A stretch of 8,450 nt of DNA from Actinomycetes bacterium (lineage in GTDB: Bacteria; Actinomycetota; Acidimicrobiia; Acidimicrobiales; RAAP-2), in the NCBI GenBank assembly GCA_021850345.1, contig JAJZMN010000201.1:1-8450 (forward strand), written 5' to 3'. The position numbers and the translations under genes were made by a program. Positions 1-8,450 of the stretch are shown in pieces; the stretch's first letter is position 1; the number at the start of each line of letters is the position of its first letter. The notes under the pieces are model-generated. The model searched no databases, was not told where the DNA came from, and was given only the letters and a program-made list of their open reading frames with translations.

Positions 1-1179
1 CCAGGCTGCAGGACGCTCCGCGACCTGCTGGGTCGCGATCGGGACTCGTACCATGTGCAGGGGGCGCTGCTCCGCCCCCTCGCGGAACGACTCCACCCAG
101 TGGGCGAATACGAGGTCGTCATCGTCCAGCATGGCGAGGTAGCGGCCGCGGGCCACGAGCGCCCCTTCGTTCAGGGGGCGAGAGCGCCCACCGCCGTACA
201 CCTCGACCACGCGTACGCGCTGGGCGAAGGAGGGGTGGAACTCTCCGACCATCTCGGAGAGTGAGGAGGCCGTGCCGTCGGTGCCGTTGTGCAGCAACAC
301 GAGGACTTCGAAGTCGTCGCAGCTCTGCGCCGCGAGGCACAGGAGCGACTCTTGGAGCGTCCCCGGGCGCTTTCCCTGCGTGCGCAGCAGCACCGAGAGG
401 AACGGCCGAGCGGCGGGCCCGTCGACGCGTTCCCCGTTGTCGTGCACGACCACGGATGCTGCACGCGATGGCTCTTTTTGCACCGGTTCGTACATCCGCA
501 CGAAGTGCGTCACGAAAGCAGCGCTGTCCGCCATCTGGCGCAACGCGCTGAGCTGCATGCCGATCGAGGTCGTTCGTTCGAGCGGCACGTCTTCGCAGGG
601 CCCGTCCAACCTGGCGTGCCGCACGTCGGCGGCGCCCATCTGCGAGAAGCCGTGCTGCGCCATGAGCGTGTGGAGCGAGCGGTCGGAGAACTGCCGTACC
701 TGGTCCGGTGACACGATGCCACCGGGCACGGCATCCCAGCGCCCCAAGAGAAGCGTCGCCGCGACATCGAGGTGGGTGACGTTCGCCACGTGGGCCACGA
801 TCGGTGCGTTCCCCACCTCGATGCAGAACGCCCTGAGCGCGTCGAGCACGCTCCCGATGGCGAGCACACGGCTCGGTGCGTCGCCGAGGACGACTCCAGC
901 GACCGGCCTCTCACCCAGGCAGGAGCGAACGGCAGTGAAGAGGGCACGTGGTGTGGCGAGACCTTCGCCGACGACTTCGATGCCGCCGCGTACGAGCCGC
1001 GGTATCTCGGTTGCCGCCGGGCCGGCGGCGAGATAGCCGAGCCCGAGGGGCACGAGGGCGTCGTGGACTTCTTCGTGGTTCCTTCCGAGGTCGACCACGA
1101 CCGAGCCCTGGGGGGGACGCCGTCGGCACAGCAGCTCCACCACCCGATCGGTGGGAGAGAGGGAGGCGCGGTCCGTCAT
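1..1179 (-). CDS. Degenerate-methyltransferase / GT2 glycosyltransferase fusion (3' end outside window)
   Basis: The frame is open from ATG 1179 to the window edge, giving 393 residues with no stop; the C-terminus is missing. Residues about 1-230 align with the methyltransferase half of the protein encoded at 2152-3798: both carry a V-V-D-L-G strand, an A/I-N-V-T/S-H stretch and an L-L-L-G-R-W-D block (143-149 here). However, the SAM-binding loop that should read GCGxG is R-N-H-E-E (residues 33-37), so SAM binding looks lost. Residues about 259-393 are a GT-A family 2 domain: P-F-L-S-V-L, a D-D-F-E-V-L-V strand, N-E-G-A-L-V-A-R-G-R-Y, and an intact acidic DDDD metal/nucleotide-sugar motif at 352-355. 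The start overlaps the upstream gene's TGA as ATGA, and no clear Shine-Dalgarno is seen, so translation is probably coupled. Likely role (inference): sugar transfer in surface polysaccharide assembly. Donor and acceptor cannot be read from the sequence. Confidence 0.87.
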   Translation of the reverse strand, partial: MTDRASLSPTDRVVELLCRRRPPQGSVVVDLGRNHEEVHDALVPLGLGYLAAGPAATEIPRLVRGGIEVVGEGLATPRALFTAVRSCLGERPVAGVVLGDAPSRVLAIGSVLDALRAFCIEVGNAPIVAHVANVTHLDVAATLLLGRWDAVPGGIVSPDQVRQFSDRSLHTLMAQHGFSQMGAADVRHARLDGPCEDVPLERTTSIGMQLSALRQMADSAAFVTHFVRMYEPVQKEPSRAASVVVHDNGERVDGPAARPFLSVLLRTQGKRPGTLQESLLCLAAQSCDDFEVLVLLHNGTDGTASSLSEMVGEFHPSFAQRVRVVEVYGGGRSRPLNEGALVARGRYLAMLDDDDLVFAHWVESFREGAEQRPLHMVRVPIATQQVAERPAAW

Positions 1180-2102
1180 GGATCGCTGTAGCTGAAGCGG
1201 TGCGCCGCGTACTCGTTGCCGACGAACTGCGCCACACGGTGATCTGGATCGATGGGCTCCGGCATGTCTCCGGCGTCGATCTTCGCCCGCAGCTCCGCGG
1301 CGATCCGTCGCTGGTAGCGCTCCGGTGAGGACTCGAGCGCCGCGAGGCGCGCGAGCGCAAGGTCTCTGCGGCTGTAGCGCCAGGGGAGCAGCACGTGGGC
1401 GCGCGCCGAGAATTCGAGCTCACGTTCACTGGGTCTGAGCCCGCCGTTGTCGTCGAGGCGCTTGTCGTGGAACACCCGAGCAGAGGGTCGGTGCACGACC
1501 CGCCAGCCGGCCAATCGTGCCCGCCAGGAGAAGTCGACGTCGTCGCCGTGGAGGAAGAACAGCTCCGTGTCGAACCCGTTCGTTGCTGCGACCACCTCGG
1601 CGCGCACGAGGACGCACGATCCCGATGCCCAGCTCGTGTCACCGGTGACCGGATCATGGGCCTTCGGATGTTCCAGGGGTAGCTGACGCGCCTCGACCAC
1701 GCCGACGGAGCTGTCGGCGAGACCCCGGACGAGCTCGGTCACCAATCGTGGCGACGCGTAGGTGTCGGGGTTCATGACCAGCACGATGTCCGCGCGCGAC
1801 TCCTGGAACAGCCGGTTGTGCCCGCCGGCCGATCCGAGGTTCTCGCCGAAGTGCAGGTAGTCCACGCTCGAGAACGGGTGTGGACCGTCGGGGAGGAAGT
1901 CTTCGGCTCGGTCGGAGAGCGGGTGCTCGGAGCTGTCGCCGATCGCGAGCTCGGTCGCGCAGACCGCGCCGCCGTCCAGTGCATGCTCGCAGGCCGCCAC
2001 CACGCTGCTCGTGAAGCGCACAACGTCATCTCTCGCGTTGTGGAACAGGACGGTCTGCACGCGCAGCGTCGGCGCAGGACCACGAGCGTGCCCTTCGCTC
2101 AC
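1176..2102 (-). CDS. GT2 glycosyltransferase, rhamnosyltransferase-like
   Basis: A 308-aa protein with the layout of the dTDP-rhamnosyltransferase-like branch of GT family 2. It has an N-terminal Rossmann-like strand (R-V-Q-T-V-L-F-H-N, 14-22), N-L-G-S-A-G-G-H-N-R at 88-97, the M-N-P-D acidic motif at 110-113, A-S-G-S-C-V-L-V-R at 159-167, then F-F-L-H-G-D-D-V-D-F-S-W-R at 182-194 and A-G-W-R-V-V-H at 198-204. This last block is the usual catalytic/acceptor-side motif of these enzymes. No membrane segment is seen, so it is probably a cytosolic or membrane-associated enzyme. The frame is open further upstream, to 2270, but that would overlap the preceding gene's 3' end. GTG 2102 was chosen because it lies just after that gene's stop and has a TATGCT box 8 nt upstream. 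Its TGA overlaps the next gene's ATG. Sugar specificity is inferred from family resemblance only. Confidence 0.88.
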   Translation of the reverse strand: MSEGHARGPAPTLRVQTVLFHNARDDVVRFTSSVVAACEHALDGGAVCATELAIGDSSEHPLSDRAEDFLPDGPHPFSSVDYLHFGENLGSAGGHNRLFQESRADIVLVMNPDTYASPRLVTELVRGLADSSVGVVEARQLPLEHPKAHDPVTGDTSWASGSCVLVRAEVVAATNGFDTELFFLHGDDVDFSWRARLAGWRVVHRPSARVFHDKRLDDNGGLRPSERELEFSARAHVLLPWRYSRRDLALARLAALESSPERYQRRIAAELRAKIDAGDMPEPIDPDHRVAQFVGNEYAAHRFSYSDP

Positions 2103-2110
2103 GGATCGGC

Positions 2111-2116
2111 AGCATA
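2111..2116 (-). promoter_or_regulatory. Candidate -10 box for a leaderless transcript
   Basis: Read on the minus strand this is TATGCT, a TAnnnT match ending 8 nt before the GTG at 2102. That would put the transcription start at or next to the start codon. The GTG has no Shine-Dalgarno. No good -35 is seen. It lies in the 49-bp gap after the upstream gene, so it would be an internal promoter within the cluster. Confidence 0.4.
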
Positions 2117-2151
2117 GCGGTGGTGATGCATCGTCCCTGCCCAGCGCACGC

Positions 2152-3798
2152 TCAGCGGTGACGCCACCAACCGGTGACGGCGCGCAGTGGTGCCGTGGCG
2201 CGCCAGCTGGTGGACTCGCGCATGTCGGTGAGCTGCATCTGGAGGTTCTCGCACGCCCGGGCGAGGACATCTCGTTCGTCGTGCAGTTCTACGAGCAGAG
2301 TGGCACTGTCGCAGTCGAGGAGCAGCGGCTCTTGGTCGAGCGCGAAGACGATCTCCTCTCGGGCTGGATCGGGCAGTGCGTCAGCGGCCACTGGGGTGGG
2401 ATAGTGGGACGAGACGAGCTCTCTCGACGTGGTCGCTGAAAGGCCGCACAGCCGGACGCCGTCGATCACCAGCTTCCAATCGGTCGAGCCTTGGTCGAGC
2501 GCGACACCCATGTCCACGAAGATCGACCGCGGGAAGGCGAAGGCCGAAAGCGGCCCGGGGTCCGTCACGAGCATCCCGAGAAGGTGTGCACCCCGCTCGA
2601 TTCCGGCATCGATCACGCGGCCCGGCGCGCGCGCGGCGGTCTGGATCAGCTCGCTCACCCAGTGCGGCTCGGTGACGTCGGCGGCGCCGAGGAAGGCGAC
2701 ATAGCGACCTCGGGCAACCTGGACGGCGAGCTCCTCGGGGCTGGTCCGCGGCGCGGGGCCCAGTGCCCTTTCTCGTGTCGCCGCAACATCGACCGTCACG
2801 ACGCGCAGGCGCCCTTCCAGTGCCCTGTGGCGGCGCGTCAGCGCCTCTTCGAGATCGCCGGGGGTGCCGCGCATGGAGATGACCACTTCGAAGTCGCGAG
2901 AAGCTTGCATGCACAGCGAGGCCACGAGCGGCTCGAACGTGTCCAGCGCGCTCGACGCCGTGGGTCCGGCCAGCGGTACGAGCACGGAGAGAAAGGGGCG
3001 CTGGAGGTCATCGGAGTGGACGTCGGCCGCGAGCCCCGCGACGGCATCACTCGGGTGCTCGGAGGCACCGCGAGGCGAGTATGCCCGAACGAACTGGTTG
3101 GTCGTGCCACCGGGCGCGGCCGCTTCCCGTATCCGGCGGAGGAGCGCACCAACTGGCGTGCTGGCCAGCAGCGCCGGACAGTCGTCGGGAAAATGCTGAT
3201 CGCTCTCGTCGAGCTCGAAGTCGTCGGCTTCGAGCTCGTTCCACCCGGTCGCCGCCATCGTCGACGACAGCGTCGACGGGGCGAAGAAGCGGACGTGCGT
3301 GACGTCGAGGAGACCCGTGGGCGTCACGTCCCAGCGGCCAAGGAGCAGCTTCACTGCGACGTCGCGGTGGGAGACGTTCGGGATGCTCACGACAAGTGGC
3401 ACGCTTCCGTTCGACGACGCGTGCCGAAAGAGGGCGGTGAGCACTTCGATGGAGTTCGGGAGGTGCTCGATGCAGTCCAGCGCGACGAACGCCGCCAGGC
3501 GTCGTCCCGCGAGTGCCACGGCGAGGGCGTCGAGGAGCTGGACGGGTTCGCAGACGTTGGCGGTGAGGCCCTCGAAGCCGCGCGACTCGAGGGAGCGGAG
3601 GCCGGCGGCCTCGACGTCCACCCCGAGGTAGGTGAGCCCGAGGTCCCGAACCGGTTCGGCGATCGGGCCGAAGCCGCAACCGAGGTCCACGACCATCTCG
3701 CCGGTCGGGGCGCGCCATCGCTCGATGAGACCGACCGCGTGGGCGTAGGGCGTGCCGGGTCCGTACGAGAACCGGTATCTGTCGCCGACCGCGGACAT
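2152..3798 (-). CDS. SAM methyltransferase / degenerate GT2 fusion with C-terminal SWRxTAPLR tail
   Basis: A 548-aa two-domain protein. Residues about 10-240 form a class I SAM-dependent methyltransferase: motif I V-V-D-L-G-C-G-F-G at 36-44, the acidic strand end G-V-D-V-E at 59-63, D-C-I-E-H-L-P at 108-114 and S-I-P-N-V-S-H at 138-144. Residues about 268-400 have the fold pattern of a GT2 domain (P-F-L-S-V-L-V-P, D-F-E-V-V-I, V-A-R-G-R-Y-V-A-F-L). The acidic DxD site reads G-A-A-D (371-374) and the first acidic pair is also absent, so glycosyl transfer is doubtful. Residues about 500-528 look helical or coiled-coil, followed by S-T-S-W-R-A-T-A-P-L-R (529-539), a tail seen on many O-antigen and surface-polysaccharide enzymes. 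ATG 3798 was preferred over upstream in-frame starts because the protein becomes domain-like only here and a TACCAT box lies 7 nt upstream. Likely role (inference): methylation of a glycan or sugar intermediate in a polysaccharide pathway. Confidence 0.88.
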   Translation of the reverse strand: MSAVGDRYRFSYGPGTPYAHAVGLIERWRAPTGEMVVDLGCGFGPIAEPVRDLGLTYLGVDVEAAGLRSLESRGFEGLTANVCEPVQLLDALAVALAGRRLAAFVALDCIEHLPNSIEVLTALFRHASSNGSVPLVVSIPNVSHRDVAVKLLLGRWDVTPTGLLDVTHVRFFAPSTLSSTMAATGWNELEADDFELDESDQHFPDDCPALLASTPVGALLRRIREAAAPGGTTNQFVRAYSPRGASEHPSDAVAGLAADVHSDDLQRPFLSVLVPLAGPTASSALDTFEPLVASLCMQASRDFEVVISMRGTPGDLEEALTRRHRALEGRLRVVTVDVAATRERALGPAPRTSPEELAVQVARGRYVAFLGAADVTEPHWVSELIQTAARAPGRVIDAGIERGAHLLGMLVTDPGPLSAFAFPRSIFVDMGVALDQGSTDWKLVIDGVRLCGLSATTSRELVSSHYPTPVAADALPDPAREEIVFALDQEPLLLDCDSATLLVELHDERDVLARACENLQMQLTDMRESTSWRATAPLRAVTGWWRHR

Positions 3799-3805
3799 CC
3801 TGCGG

Positions 3806-3811
3806 ATGGTA
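3806..3811 (-). promoter_or_regulatory. Candidate -10 box, leaderless start of the fusion gene
   Basis: The minus strand reads TACCAT, a TAnnnT element with 7 nt between it and ATG 3798. This places transcription initiation at about the A of the ATG. No convincing -35 was found about 17 bp upstream. The nearest purine-rich stretch, AGGGAG, directly abuts an in-frame GTG at 3834 and is too close to act as a ribosome binding site for it. Confidence 0.42.
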
Positions 3812-3863
3812 GTGCGCGGGTGTGCTGCGGGCACCTCCCTGGAGTGCCGACGTGATGTGCATG

Positions 3864-3877
3864 CAGGTGGCAGGTGG
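3864..3877 (+). repeat. Tandem CAGGTGG pair in the divergent intergenic region
   Basis: Two adjacent copies of CAGGTGG lie about midway in the 193-bp region (3799-3991) between the divergent genes. They are preceded by the palindrome TGCATGCA (3858-3865), which overlaps the first copy by two bases. They could be an operator controlling both directions, but the sequence alone gives no regulator. The rest of the gap shows only the two -10 candidates. Confidence 0.3.
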
Positions 3878-3979
3878 CGCAGGACGCCATTGCGAGATGC
3901 CGGCCGCTGATGTGATGGCAGCGGCGTCGCCCTCGTTCGGGGGCGCAACAACGCCACCGTCCAGCGGGCTGTCCTCTCC

Positions 3980-3985
3980 TACACT
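3980..3985 (+). promoter_or_regulatory. Candidate -10 box, leaderless start of the divergent glycosyltransferase
   Basis: TACACT fits TAnnnT and ends 6 nt before GTG 3992. With the usual geometry, transcription would start on the G of the GTG itself. No Shine-Dalgarno precedes the start, consistent with a leaderless mRNA. The -35 region (about 3957-3962) is not recognisable. Confidence 0.5.
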
Positions 3986-3991
3986 CGTGCG

Positions 3992-5200
3992 GTGCGATCT
4001 GTGGACCCGGCAGACCTCGCGCTCGTCGACGCCTTCGTCCACTACCTGCGACGGCAGCTCGGAGGCGGCGAAGCGGACGTCGTGCATGTATCCAAGCCGG
4101 CCCGGGCGGTCCCGGCCCGTGCTGCGATCGTGGTCGACACGGGCGCAGGCGGGTGGCGGCGGACGGCGCTTCGGCTCAGAGGCCTTCGCCCGCAGTTCTC
4201 GGGCGTCGCCAGGGGCGCGGGCGGGTCGAGCGGGGTCCCCGTCACCATCTGGGATCGCTGGGACCGCCACCGGGTGGGGGAGCCGCCGGCGGGGTTCGAG
4301 GTCATGGCGATCATGACCACCTATAACGAGGCAGGCATCATCGACCAACAGCTCGACCGGATGACGGCAGCGGGGCTCCACGTCCACATGATCGACAACT
4401 GGTCGACGGACGACACCTGGGAGCGGGCGAAGGCCAAGGCGGCACACGCGCCCATCACGCTCGAGCGCTGGCCGGAGAATGGACCGTCGCGCTACTTCAG
4501 CCTGAGGGGGCTGCTCACCAAGGTCGAGCAGGTCGCGCATACCTGCGGCGCCGACTGGGTCATCCACCACGACGCCGACGAGATCCACGAGTCGCCGTGG
4601 CCGGACACCGACATGCGACACGCGTTGTGGGCGCTCGAGCAGTGGGGGTTCAATGCAGCCGACCACACCGGAGTGGACTTCCGGCCCGTCGACAACCGGT
4701 GGGGGTCCGGCGACGACCTTGCGACGTCCTTCGAATGGTTCGAGTTCCCGCCAATCCCCGCGTACTTCACGCTCGTCAGATGCTGGAAGCCACAGCCCTC
4801 GCCGGTCGACCTGGCGAACGCAGGCGGTCACGACGCGGTGTTCGAGGGCCGACGGATGTTCCCCTACAAGTTCCTCATCCGCCACTATCCGATTCGCTCC
4901 CAGGCGCACGGGGAGCGCAAGATCCTGCGCGAGCGAAAGGCGCGGTTCGACCCCGCCGAGCGGGCCAAGGGCTGGCATGTGCACTACGACCACTTCGATG
5001 AGGGCTCGAGCTTCCTTTGGGATCCCTCGGGACTGCACCGCTGGGAGGAGATCGACGAGCGTTACCTGCTCCAGCGGCTCAGTGGGGCTGGCCTCCCTGG
5101 CAACCCCCGCCCCGACGAGGCCGGTCCTGCAGCAGCAGCTGCAGTCGCCGCTGGAGCGCCCGCAGCACCCGGCCCGCCGCCCGCGGGCGGGGTGCGCTGA
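3992..5200 (+). CDS. GT2-type glycosyltransferase (GT-A fold)
   Basis: A 402-aa protein from GTG 3992. The GT-A core starts near residue 102: V-M-A-I-M-T-T-Y-N-E-A (104-114), H-M-I-D-N-W-S-T-D-D-T (132-142) as the nucleotide-binding strand and loop, and W-V-I-H-H-D-A-D-E at 189-197 carrying the DxD metal/donor motif. The C-terminal part (A-F-I-R-H-Y-P-like R-H-Y-P-I-R-S at 297-303, then basic K-I-L-R-E-R-K-A-R-F) resembles cytosolic GT2 proteins of polysaccharide loci. The first 100 residues match no family I recognise. The last 30 (about 373-402) are an Ala/Pro/Gly tail that is probably disordered. No membrane segment is seen. It is divergent from the three minus-strand sugar genes and shares their intergenic region, so a role in the same surface-glycan pathway is likely. 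Donor and acceptor are unknown. Confidence 0.87.
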   Translation: MRSVDPADLALVDAFVHYLRRQLGGGEADVVHVSKPARAVPARAAIVVDTGAGGWRRTALRLRGLRPQFSGVARGAGGSSGVPVTIWDRWDRHRVGEPPAGFEVMAIMTTYNEAGIIDQQLDRMTAAGLHVHMIDNWSTDDTWERAKAKAAHAPITLERWPENGPSRYFSLRGLLTKVEQVAHTCGADWVIHHDADEIHESPWPDTDMRHALWALEQWGFNAADHTGVDFRPVDNRWGSGDDLATSFEWFEFPPIPAYFTLVRCWKPQPSPVDLANAGGHDAVFEGRRMFPYKFLIRHYPIRSQAHGERKILRERKARFDPAERAKGWHVHYDHFDEGSSFLWDPSGLHRWEEIDERYLLQRLSGAGLPGNPRPDEAGPAAAAAVAAGAPAAPGPPPAGGVR

Positions 5201-5271
5201 GCCGTCGAGGTGGCCAGTTGCCTGGGGCGCACTTGCGCGAGCCCGTGCCGGACCGGCAGCATCGAGCCGTC

Positions 5272-5907
5272 ATGATGTCCGACGACCCCCGGCACACGCG
5301 CACCTACAGGACGGCCGTCGGCTCGCAGACGGTCGAGCTGCCGCTCGTACGCGTCGCGCCTGACGTCACGATCGCCCTGCTCATCTGCGTCGACCACGGC
5401 GTGGAGTTCTCCGCGCGTGCAGGCAAGGAGCTTGCTGAGCTCCTCACGGATGCCGAGCCCGAGGTCGTCGTGTCCGTCGCCACGATGGGGATTCCTCTCG
5501 CCATCGAGGTCACCCGCGGCCTAGGGCTCGACGACTACGTCATCTTGCACAAGACGCCCAAGATCCACCTCGGGGACACCTGGGTCGAGCCGGTGCGGTC
5601 GATCACGACGGGCGCGGACCAGACGCTCAGGCTGGACCCGGTGCGCGTGGACGCGGTGCGCGGTCGGCGGGTCGCTGTCGTCGACGACGTGGTCTCGACC
5701 GGCGCATCGCTCCGTGCGTCACTGAACCTGCTGCGGCGTGTCGGCGCCGAACCGGTGGTGGTCGGCGCCTTCCTGACCGAGGGCGAACAGTGGCGCCATG
5801 CGCTCGGAGACGATGCAGAGCTCGTGCGCGCCCTCGGCGCCATCCCGCTGTTCCACGACGCGCCCGGCGGAGGGCTCGTCGAAGATTGGGCGGGCGACGC
5901 AGGCTGA
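5272..5907 (+). CDS. Phosphoribosyltransferase, purine (adenine)-type
   Basis: A 211-aa type I phosphoribosyltransferase. The PRPP-binding signature V-A-V-V-D-D-V-V-S-T-G-A-S is at residues 134-146. An upstream V-V-V-S-V-A-T-M-G-I-P-L-A strand and loop (65-77) and the K-T-P-K-I-H / S-I-T-T-G-A-D-Q-T-L flexible-loop region (94-119) match purine PRTases of the adenine phosphoribosyltransferase type. The reaction would be a free base plus PRPP giving a nucleoside monophosphate and pyrophosphate, in the cytosol. The frame is open back to 5017, but that would overlap the preceding gene by almost 200 bp. Two in-frame ATGs at 5272 and 5275 begin the domain-like sequence, with only a weak GAG 5 nt upstream. 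It lies 71 bp after the glycosyltransferase and ends 18 bp before the convergent permease stop, and that pairing supports nucleobase salvage. The exact base (adenine, another purine or a pyrimidine) is not determined; a regulatory PurR-like role is less likely. Confidence 0.85.
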   Translation: MMSDDPRHTRTYRTAVGSQTVELPLVRVAPDVTIALLICVDHGVEFSARAGKELAELLTDAEPEVVVSVATMGIPLAIEVTRGLGLDDYVILHKTPKIHLGDTWVEPVRSITTGADQTLRLDPVRVDAVRGRRVAVVDDVVSTGASLRASLNLLRRVGAEPVVVGAFLTEGEQWRHALGDDAELVRALGAIPLFHDAPGGGLVEDWAGDAG

Positions 5908-5925
5908 GGGGTACCGGGCAGCGAA

Positions 5926-7410
5926 CTACTCGGTTGGTGCCGCGGCCAGCAGCTCGTCCTGGCGGTCCGCCTCTCTGCGCACCGCGACGCCGGCAAGCAG
6001 GAGGTACACGAGGCCGCCGACCCCGATCCCGAGGTAGATGCTGAAGTCGGCGCCTCCTGCGTTGCTCGTCACTTCGTTCAGCCAGGTTGGCAGGTGGAAC
6101 GTGGCCGACAGGCCCGAGATCGCCGCGAACATCCCGACAAGCTGAGCGATGAGGGCGGGCCAGAAGAAGCCACCGTTGCGGTAGTAGAAGCTGTCGCGCC
6201 CCGTGCGCTGGAGCTGCTGGGGCAGGTACTTGAACCGCCGGAGTGCCCAGTCCACCAGGTAGATCGCGACCCATGGGGCGATCCAGACGATGACCACGTC
6301 GACGAAGTCGTGGAGGAACGAGGAGAACGACGTGCTCAGCACCGCGAAGATCGTGAACCCGAGGACGATCACCGAGTCGATCAGCACGGCCACATAGCGC
6401 TTGACTCTGAGGCCGAGCGCCTGGAGCGTGACACCGGAGGAGTAGAGGTCGAGGCCGTTGATCGCGAAGATCTGCAGGATCGCGAACACGAGGAACAGCA
6501 CCACGAACCACGACGGGATGATGTGCTGGTGCGCCAAGGCGCTGAACGTTGTGCCTGTGACGCCGACACCCTTGATGAAGGTGTAGACGGCGGCACCGAG
6601 AAGCATCACTGCGATCTCCGGCAGCGCCGTGGAGACGAAGACCCAGCCGACGATCGAGGACTTCTTGGCATCCGGGCGGCAGTACCGGGAGTAGTCGTTC
6701 CCGCACTCGGTCCAGCCGAGGCCCGAGAGCGTGATCGTGAAGGCCAGTCCCGCCAAGTACGTCTCCCAGCTGGCGCCGTGCGCGACGCCCGTCGTGGTGG
6801 CGTGCGGGATGGCGAACGCGAGCAAGATCGCGAAGATCGCCAGGAACGGGAGCGTCAGCCAGCGAAGGACCTTCACGATCGTGGCGTGGCCGAGGAAGGG
6901 AAGGACACCCTGGATCACGACGGCCACGACGACGAAGATGATCTTCGCCGGGTCTCCGGCACTGAAGCCCGCCTTCGCGGCGAGTGCCATGCCGGCCAGG
7001 ACGATCAGGAAGATGCCCTCGACTTCGAAGCCGAGCTGGGTGATCCAGTTGAAGAAGGCGATGATGCGCGATCCGTTGGGCCCGTATGCGGCACGGTTGG
7101 AGCCGAACACGGTCGTCCCGGCCTGCGGCCCTTGCAGGCTCGTCAGGCCGAGGATGAAGTACGACAAGTTGCCGAGCACGATGATCGACAGGGCCTGCCA
7201 GAACGTGAACCCGAAGGTCATCAAGATGGCGCCGTAGATGAAGTACTCGATCTGGACGCTCGCGCCGGCCCACATCCCGCCGACCGCACGCGGAGAGGCC
7301 CAGCGCTCGCTCAGCTTGATGTAGTCGACGCCGTGGGTCTCGATATGGAAGGCCTCGTCGGTCTCGGGTTCTTTCCCGATCGACGTGTTCTCCTCCAGAG
7401 CCGTGGTCAT
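5926..7410 (-). CDS. NCS1-family nucleobase:cation symporter (cytosine/purine permease)
   Basis: A 494-aa integral membrane protein with about 12 hydrophobic segments (roughly 53-70, 73-92, 120-145, 157-177, 184-204, 216-236, 256-280, 299-321, 335-362, 368-388, 414-436, 456-476). This matches nucleobase:cation symporter-1 proteins in length and topology. Family features include the A-V-G-G-M-W-A-G-A-S segment at TM1 (42-51), G-P-Q-A-G-T at 94-99 after TM2, N-R-A-A-Y-G-P-N-G (105-113), and W-T-E-C-G-N-D-Y-S-R-Y (233-243), the D-Y-S-R-Y block typical of cytosine/purine permeases. It would import a nucleobase or related heterocycle (cytosine, purine, possibly allantoin or hydantoin) with a cation across the cytoplasmic membrane. 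ATG 7410 has a good GAGG ribosome binding site 7 nt away. The convergent phosphoribosyltransferase suggests the imported substrate is a salvageable base. Substrate is inferred, family is firm. Confidence 0.93.
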   Translation of the reverse strand: MTTALEENTSIGKEPETDEAFHIETHGVDYIKLSERWASPRAVGGMWAGASVQIEYFIYGAILMTFGFTFWQALSIIVLGNLSYFILGLTSLQGPQAGTTVFGSNRAAYGPNGSRIIAFFNWITQLGFEVEGIFLIVLAGMALAAKAGFSAGDPAKIIFVVVAVVIQGVLPFLGHATIVKVLRWLTLPFLAIFAILLAFAIPHATTTGVAHGASWETYLAGLAFTITLSGLGWTECGNDYSRYCRPDAKKSSIVGWVFVSTALPEIAVMLLGAAVYTFIKGVGVTGTTFSALAHQHIIPSWFVVLFLVFAILQIFAINGLDLYSSGVTLQALGLRVKRYVAVLIDSVIVLGFTIFAVLSTSFSSFLHDFVDVVIVWIAPWVAIYLVDWALRRFKYLPQQLQRTGRDSFYYRNGGFFWPALIAQLVGMFAAISGLSATFHLPTWLNEVTSNAGGADFSIYLGIGVGGLVYLLLAGVAVRREADRQDELLAAAPTE

Positions 7411-7413
7411 ATG

Positions 7414-7421
7414 CCCCCCTC
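7414..7421 (-). promoter_or_regulatory. Ribosome binding site of the permease gene
   Basis: The minus strand reads GAGGGGGG, with the GAGG core 7 nt from ATG 7410. It is the only strong Shine-Dalgarno in the window and fixes the permease start. It contrasts with the SD-less starts of the sugar genes. Confidence 0.75.
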
Positions 7422-7441
7422 AGGTCAACCGGTCGCTCCGC

Positions 7442-7447
7442 ACGATA
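7442..7447 (-). promoter_or_regulatory. Candidate -10 box for the permease gene
   Basis: The minus strand reads TATCGT (TAnnnT), 31 nt upstream of ATG 7410. This would leave a leader of about 25 nt that includes the Shine-Dalgarno. No clear -35. The 140-bp gap 7411-7550 holds no gene and no convincing terminator hairpin. Confidence 0.3.
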
Positions 7448-7550
7448 CGTGTCGCGCCGGCTCGCGTCTTCCGGAATCCTACGACGACTGTGTGGACCAG
7501 CGAGGGACCGTCGGGCGTCGCTTCGTGACGGCTGCTCTGCACGGACGCGC

Positions 7551-8450
7551 TCAGCTCGTCGAGGTGGAGGAGTTGGTGCCTGTAGGCGCCGGCATGTTCG
7601 TGCCCGACGTCCCGTTCGAGGGGGCCGCCCCACTTGCCGGCCCCGCTGTGGCGCCTTTCGCCGGAGGATCGGTGCTCGCGGATGTCGAGACCTGAGCAGG
7701 CGCCGCTGTGGCCGAGCTTGCTGTGGGCCGAGCGGGCGCCGCTGTGGCCGAGCTGACTGTGGGCTGACCGAGGGGGTCAAGGAAGACGACGGTGAGCGCT
7801 GCGGTGTCAGAGGGCTCGAGGACCTGGACTTCTGCGACGAAGTTCGGTGGCAGGCTCCAGGGGAGGCCGTCGGAGGGGCCGCTCGTTCCAGCGATCTGGG
7901 TGACCGAACCACGGAAGAGATAGTCGACCGCGCCCGACGTCGTGGGGCTAGCGCCTGTGGGGCCGCCGAAGGGACGCGAGACGAGCGAGCCGACGAGGCG
8001 CCACTCGTTTCCTGTCTGCGTGGTCATGTCGACGGCGAGGATCGAGCCGCCCTCCGCCAGGCAGGTACCGATCTTGACGTGGACCGGCGCGCTGGACCCC
8101 GCCGTCGCGTTCACCGAGGCTGTGCTCGAGAAGCTCGGTGAGGTGCTCTGTGACGTGAGCGGGACTGTGCCGGTGCTCAAGATTGCGTCGAGGACCGACG
8201 AGCTGAGTGGCGGCACGGATGTCGGCTTGGTGACCCCGGGGAACCCAGGAACCCCCGTGCAGCTGCCGATCGGCAACGTGAAGCCGTGTCCGCCGGCCAC
8301 CGACGTCCCCGACGTGCTCGTGCTCGACGACCCGCTGCCCGACGACGTGCTCGTGCCCGACGACCCGCTGCCCGACGACGTGCTCGTGCTCGACGACCCG
8401 GTACCCGACGACGCGCTCGTGCCCGACGACGTGCTCGTGCCCGACGACGT
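7551..8450 (-). CDS. Low-complexity, probably exported protein of unknown function (5' end outside window)
   Basis: The frame is open from the right window edge to TGA 7551-7553 (299 residues); the N-terminus is missing, so signal peptide and start are not visible. Visible residues 1-50 are only Ser, Thr and Gly with a single Ala, encoded by tandem repeats. Residues about 51-230 alternate hydrophobic and small polar residues as in beta-sandwich proteins. They include H-V-K-I-G-T-C (124-130), G-N-E-W-R-L-V-G-S-L-V (147-157), D-Y-L-F-R-G-S-V (176-183) and F-V-A-E-V-Q-V-L-E-P (204-213). There are two cysteines, at 64 and 130. Residues about 232-299 are an Ala/Ser/Thr/Pro tail with a duplicated 12-residue unit. 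No membrane anchor or LPxTG motif is visible in this part. I recognise no family. The composition suggests an extracytoplasmic, possibly O-glycosylated protein (inference). The opposite strand is also open from 7924 to the edge, but its product is less protein-like. Confidence 0.68.
   Translation of the reverse strand, partial: TSSGTSTSSGTSASSGTGSSSTSTSSGSGSSGTSTSSGSGSSSTSTSGTSVAGGHGFTLPIGSCTGVPGFPGVTKPTSVPPLSSSVLDAILSTGTVPLTSQSTSPSFSSTASVNATAGSSAPVHVKIGTCLAEGGSILAVDMTTQTGNEWRLVGSLVSRPFGGPTGASPTTSGAVDYLFRGSVTQIAGTSGPSDGLPWSLPPNFVAEVQVLEPSDTAALTVVFLDPLGQPTVSSATAAPARPTASSATAAPAQVSTSASTDPPAKGATAGPASGAAPSNGTSGTNMPAPTGTNSSTSTS
7694..7765 (-). repeat. 36-bp tandem duplication in the Ala/Ser/Thr/Pro tail
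   Basis: Two head-to-tail 36-bp units (7694-7729 and 7730-7765) differ at 4 positions. They encode a 12-residue unit containing S-A-T-A-A-P-A followed by R-P-T-A-S or Q-V-S-T-S. The period is a multiple of three, so copy-number change preserves the frame. Confidence 0.85.
8308..8450 (-). repeat. 33-bp / 18-bp tandem repeats encoding a Ser/Thr/Gly segment
   Basis: On the plus strand an 18-bp unit, cccgacgacgtgctcgtg, alternates with a 15-bp unit, cccgacgacccgctg or ctcgacgacccgctg. This gives 33-bp composites at 8338-8370 and 8371-8403, a 30-bp variant at 8308-8337, then 18-bp units from 8404 to the edge. The array continues out of the window. All steps are multiples of three and keep the minus-strand frame open; translated, it is only Ser, Thr, Gly and one Ala. 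Confidence 0.88.

Follow-up and report, generated by a model that had tools for sequence, protein, structure and literature searches.

The window analysed here is an 8,450-nucleotide stretch of the genome of an Actinomycetes bacterium (order Acidimicrobiales; assembly GCA_021850345.1, contig JAJZMN010000201.1, positions 1 to 8,450 of the forward strand), whose positions 1-3800 have a match of 100% identity (a rounded value) in a 41-kb contig of the nearest genome, G001. It carries two homologous genes, A and B, each encoding a methyltransferase (MT) half followed by a GT2 glycosyltransferase (GT) half, and a different half appears to be damaged in each of them. A separate glycosyltransferase gene, C, lies between the two, and a GT2-like gene, D, is found on the other side of A (Table 1). 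A, C and B are probably read as one transcript, since the stop of C and the start of B overlap by 4 nt (ATGA) and 49 bases separate the stop of A from the start of C, assumed to be the GTG at 2102. The start of D lies about 200 bp from that of A. B is cut by the window edge, and its full-length version of 579 aa was read in G001 (L022:2743-4482).

Table 1. Features of the locus, with positions in the window.
Feature	Position	Strand	Description
A	2152..3798	-	Class I MT half with unaltered motifs (residues 10-245, approximately); shortened GT2 half with altered sites (residues 265-520, approximately); C-terminal helices
A, S-adenosylmethionine (SAM)-binding loop GCGFG, intact, residues 40-44	3667..3681	-	
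A, GAAD replacing the GT2 DDDD motif, residues 371-374	2677..2688	-	
B, cut by window edge	1..1179	-	Degenerate MT half; intact GT2 half
B, RNHEE replacing the SAM loop, residues 33-37	1069..1083	-	
B, DDDD motif of the GT2 site, intact, residues 352-355	115..126	-	
C	1176..2102	-	Separate GT2 glycosyltransferase between A and B; NPD and DDVDFSWR motifs
D	3992 (or 4001)..5200	+	GT2-like enzyme with an HDAD motif, transcribed divergently from A

At the protein level, A and B had been described in an earlier note on this DNA as two-domain paralogues, a description that holds along their full length: both translations contain LLLGRWD, DFEV and ARGRY, and when A is aligned with full-length B across 570 columns the identity is 28% (single comparison, E 7e-50). 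The four diagnostic motifs are found at the residues where that note had read them (Table 1). Its further claim that each protein keeps one intact half, with opposite losses, is supported by motif reading and by Pfam profile searches. In A, the class I MT motifs are intact (the DLGCGFG loop and, at the end of beta-2, YLGVD with its acidic residue kept) and the protein matches Methyltransf_23 (PF13489) at 2.9e-11 and 43.8 bits, over the curated cut-off of 27. Its match to the Pfam GT2 family (PF00535) reaches 16.9 bits, under the cut-off of 23.3. LGAAD stands at the DxDD position, STDW at the catalytic ED site, where the E is lost, and about 25 residues that are present in B are missing after residue 400; in AlphaFold models, the B strands 381-393 and 396-401 have no counterpart in A. 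B shows the opposite picture. It matches GT2 at 1.8e-10 and 41.4 bits, over the same cut-off, carries LDDDD at the DxDD position and, in the full-length protein of G001, retains LEDWD at the catalytic ED site. No MT match was obtained for B in Pfam at E up to 0.1; DLGRNHE replaces the SAM loop, YLAAG marks the end of beta-2 with its acidic residue changed, and the damage extends beyond the loop to the DxxEH and GLLDxTHxRFF motifs. Family profiles score A at 341 bits and B at 231 bits in the MT half, and A at 103+51 bits and B at 384 bits in the GT half.

Structure prediction of the single chains, a check that the earlier note had proposed, suggests that both damaged halves still fold. The nearest solved folds are 3cc8 (Bacillus cereus) for the MT half and AvpGT, K4CP chondroitin polymerase, RmlT and TarS for the GT2 half. 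A status of A as a pseudogene is not favoured, given that its frame is open, as are the frames of similarly damaged relatives. Both proteins end in C-terminal helices (A 498-547, B 515-572) that contain the motif STSWR, of which the two S and the W hardly vary across 30 aligned relatives. The proteins of G008-G011 reach 724-742 aa compared with the 579 of B, mainly through a longer stretch ahead of this motif.

The family to which A and B belong was collected by two protein searches at E 1e-10, of which the best 120 of 234 and the best 120 of 321 matches were kept, giving 204 distinct rows, not counting the cut B (P0002), which was excluded from every family set. A motif rule applied to 191 rows classified 118 as intact at both sites (both-live), 39 as MT-broken only, 31 as GT2-altered only and 3 as unsure, with none broken at both; the 39 include P0180 and P0183 (without an MT half) and P0188 (outside the main clade), and the 31 include P0062, P0069 and P0080 (without the ED segment) and P0064 (EG). 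L023fus and P0009, both from G003, are probably one protein. Both-live MT-GT2 fusions occur in Actinomycetota and Myxococcaceae (P0018, L071-L073, L075-L077). In an unrooted mixture-model tree of 77 rows chosen from the 191, with the motif columns removed, the 21 MT-broken rows form a single clade (support 100), as do the 12 A-clade rows (support 100). A second GT-altered clade of 12 rows (support 99) is placed elsewhere. A and B belong to separate subfamilies of long standing, each of which carries a defect of its own. A recent duplication giving rise to both is rejected: a clade made up of A, P0003, B and P0123 yields a p-AU of 6.2e-9 in the approximately unbiased (AU) test. The clades of A and B both lie within a 46-row group that includes both-live rows (support 99), and because they nest there in the unrooted tree, both-live is taken as the probable ancestral state.

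Within these subfamilies, decay can be followed in steps. In the A clade it is graded, with DDDQ or DDDH in 4 rows and the third aspartate gone in the other 8. On the other side, 11 of 12 GT-only proteins branch among MT-broken rows (a 32-row group, support 98, which includes P0160, marked as partial in its source) and the congeners G004 and G005 encode C followed by a GT2 half devoid of an MT half, which suggests a passage of the MT half from live through broken to absent. A single origin of all GT-altered rows was also considered. Most of them fell on one side of a FastTree tree built from every column, and the mixture-model tree without motif columns split the A clade from the second clade; two losses are favoured as the better tree only.

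The distribution of the two types was surveyed in 44 genomes (completeness 58 to 100%) by one profile search at E 1e-20 that scored up to 30 candidates in each genome, which were classified by motif; the counts leave out G365, G389, G526, G552 and G567, whose copies are cut, GT-only or irregular. Among 9 B-type genomes, 8 have no visible family member with an intact MT, the exception being G001. Similarly, 10 of 15 GT-altered genomes have no visible second member with an intact GT2; the remaining five are G001, G201 (same chain), G202 (elsewhere), G291 (adjacent) and G541. Each of the 16 both-live genomes has one fusion and no second match, although the label is generous for four of them with variant SAM sites, namely G230 and G339 (both with the loop GCGTA) and G472 (GCGWS), all three with E at beta-2, and G424, with G at beta-2. 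The difference in second intact-GT2 copies between GT-altered and both-live genomes (5/15 vs 0/16, Fisher p 0.018) is post hoc and drawn from related genomes, and constitutes a lead. The pair of A and B was seen in G001 only. The earlier note had suggested checking whether homologous loci always carry both copies; they do not, and since B types and GT-altered types mostly live in separate genomes, obligate pairing of A with B is not a general rule. A physical partnership in this one species is possible. A second case of complementary neighbours was observed in G291 (L183:3062-5976), where a GT-only paralogue with intact motifs directly precedes a GT-altered MT fusion.

Selection was measured by the NG86 method, separately for the MT and GT2 halves. 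In the MT-broken clade, the MT half has a ratio of nonsynonymous (dN) to synonymous (dS) divergence, omega, of 0.31-0.53 in the 12 pairs whose MT dS is 0.09-0.7. The closest pair, G009-G010, gives 0.80 from few changes, comparisons of B with each of the 8 other members give 0.45-0.84, and the GT2 half has a lower omega than the MT half in 36/36 pairs. For the GT2 half of the second GT-altered clade, 5 near-relative pairs give an omega of 0.24-0.43 and the other 16 of 21 give 0.63-1.10. For A, the measurement comes from a single distant pair, with G003 (GT2 dS 1.5). The MT half has the higher dN in 36/36 MT-broken, 0/21 GT-altered and 6/6 both-live pairs. Because both-live pairs show the same direction, with a smaller excess (dN ratio 1.1-1.7), it is the size of the MT-half excess in the MT-broken clade, rather than its direction, that constitutes the signal. 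The dead halves, which are predicted to keep their folds, diverge faster.

Regarding the neighbouring genes, C immediately precedes the fusion in 29 of the 39 loci according to a script, or in 30 when G190 is counted; at the window locus it precedes B, and A has no C upstream. No C is in view in G002, G006 and G013, three of the 8 other B-type loci, nor in G202; it is a weak match in G198, G383 and G537, lies on the opposite strand in G472 and is separated from the fusion by a GT-only gene in G291. The copies read carry NPD (NAD in G003, NDD in G424) and DDVD, DDID or EDVD, except in G526 (L157), where a fusion with an altered SAM loop adjoins a C with VPHAY instead of NPDTY that may itself be altered. 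The C of the window is closest to B-type C genes (70%). D, whose Pfam matches fall just below the cut-offs, belongs to a family that is colinear as D-C-B in 4 B-type congeners and as D-C-GT2 in the two without an MT half (G004, G005). In the second GT-altered clade (L079-L083, L085, L090) D forms the N-terminal part of a single frame that also holds C, and a clear C is joined in this way in 6 GT-altered genomes. D is in view in 9/14 GT-altered, 4/8 B-type, 2/2 MT-less and 0/16 both-live loci, counts that hold for the sequence in view only, as some loci, both-live ones included, end close to C.

Taken together, these data make it rather likely that the products of A, C, B and probably D serve to build or decorate a single cell-surface glycan, and that two subfamilies with opposite decay meet at this locus, B supplying the GT2 and A the MT activity. 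The ancestor would have been a two-domain enzyme, MT plus inverting GT2, encoded directly after C; the B subfamily would have lost MT activity and kept GT2, and the A subfamily would have lost GT2 and kept the MT. Since D-C-B is colinear in congeners and the C of the window resembles B-type C genes most, the simplest account starts from a resident cassette of B with C, and probably D, into which an A-type gene was later inserted between D and C-B. The locus would in this way regain an intact sugar transferase and an intact methyltransferase on two polypeptides. From sequence, B and C (and D) may be expected to add sugars and A to O-methylate a hydroxyl of the glycan, and the damaged halves might now be scaffold, acceptor-binding or partner-binding domains. 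Several points weigh against this reading. The later arrival of A is drawn from gene order and the affinity of C only; composition gives no signal of a horizontal origin of A, whose G+C equals that of its neighbours. The pairing of C with the fusion is not fixed, as seen in the three B-type loci with no C in view, and D is divergently transcribed here, its role in the same pathway being drawn from other genomes. Purifying selection on damaged halves is clear in close pairs only, none of which involves A. The sister proteins P0003 and P0123 are not assignable to one genome, and the tree test discussed below leaves room for a common origin of the two clades.

One alternative is that GT2 loss in GT-altered lineages was permitted by takeover by D or another extra GT2 and not by B-like partners, and that A inherited its dead GT2 half in this way. 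It is compatible with the meeting of opposite subfamilies and may be regarded as possible, if on the doubtful side. It would account for the contrast in D between GT-altered and both-live loci, and for the intact GT2 member in three further GT-altered genomes (G291, G201 and G202). However, the D-bearing GT-altered loci that could be placed in the tree form one clade and may reflect a single event, no D is in view in the A-type congener G003 nor in G238, D also stands beside B types with an intact GT2 and beside GT-only types, and its absence from both-live loci is weak where these end close to C. An ancient duplication with complementary decay (subfunctionalisation), followed by loss of either copy in most genomes and retention of both in this species, is what survives of the duplication that the earlier note had placed behind A and B. 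The grouping of the A clade with the MT-broken clade is not rejected (p-AU 0.33), and both belong to the same 46-row group. Nevertheless, the free tree does not join them and is better by 8.3 lnL units, the A-clade rows with DDDQ or DDDH make GT2 decay look gradual and subsequent to the split, and the C of the window groups with B-type cassettes, so that this history seems quite unlikely.

Other alternatives concern how the two proteins would work. The earlier note had imagined a heteromer coupling methylation to sugar transfer; in its obligate form, each dead half would bind or activate the live half of the other protein, linking methylation (capping) to chain growth. The shared domain order, the predicted folding of the damaged halves, the helical C-terminal segments, the probable operon with its C/B overlap and the precedent of WsaE, which unites methylation and transfer in one polypeptide (PMC2943079), are consistent with it, but most B-type and GT-altered genomes show no complementary member, and divergence is fastest in the damaged halves, contrary to a conserved interface, which makes an obligate heteromer improbable. 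An unlikely but related proposal is that of a split enzyme re-assembled in trans, in which oppositely decayed lineages were joined in an operon and form one complex whose dead halves hold a shared acceptor. Finally, A might not be half-dead at all if its altered GT2 half had kept its activity by using another metal or another donor geometry, for which one could invoke the conserved D of DDDD, the D of STDW and the predicted retention of the fold. This is very unlikely, given that the corresponding sites of its sister P0003 read GPGD and STSW, so the residues drift, that the strands after residue 400 are missing, and that A and P0003 share 66% identity in the GT2 half compared with 83% in the MT half.

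Fused methyltransferase-glycosyltransferases are already known, and what seems new here, going by the literature searched, is the opposite half-death of two co-resident homologues. In the S-layer glycan system of Geobacillus stearothermophilus NRS 2004/3a, WsaE is described as an N-terminal methyltransferase followed by two rhamnosyltransferases that act on the same glycan, with methylation linked to chain capping and, in vitro, without dependence on chain length (PMC2943079). Its methylation is of the 2-O type, on terminal rhamnose. By that description, rather than by its sequence, WsaE resembles A and B in having an MT and then a GT in one chain, and differs from them in having two active rhamnosyltransferase domains and an active MT, whereas A and B have one GT2 half and one damaged half each (PMC2943079). 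An order like that of WsaE, MT-GT-GT, was observed in a single chain of Microvirga flocculans (L088:9926-12769 / L125), in which an MT is accompanied by two GT2 parts, one a poor match (60 bits) and the other intact (298 bits). A064R of chlorovirus PBCV-1 also fuses MT and GT domains, which act in sequence on a surface glycan, but its order is GT-GT-MT, its D1 resembles GT34, its D2 is described as a new GT family, and all three domains are active (PMC9614988). The nearest solved folds belong to separate proteins or other architectures, and 3cc8 is titled only 'putative methyltransferase'. The both-live fusions listed above are direct homologues with the same domain order and the same C upstream, and differ from A and B in having both sites intact. 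A search of open-licence PMC articles found no account of reciprocal half-dead MT-GT fusions, which may exist elsewhere, and a search on RmlT gave no result.

This family thus offers a natural series in the breakdown of a two-domain enzyme, from both halves intact, through one half altered and then one half broken but folded, to one half deleted, with opposite end points in related clades that come together at a single locus. Whether a dead catalytic domain is retained as a scaffold becomes testable with it, and it carries a warning for annotation, as the label 'methyltransferase' or 'glycosyltransferase' can be wrong for half of such a fusion.

In the remainder of the window, a phosphoribosyltransferase gene (5272-5907, plus strand) and a purine/cytosine-type permease gene (5926-7410, minus strand) adjoin the glycan genes. 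Tandem repeats of 18, 33 and 66 bp at 8304-8450 code for a stretch rich in Ser, Thr and Gly, close to where the 5' end of the last open reading frame on the minus strand (7551-8450) is cut; the product of this frame is perhaps a secreted or wall protein.
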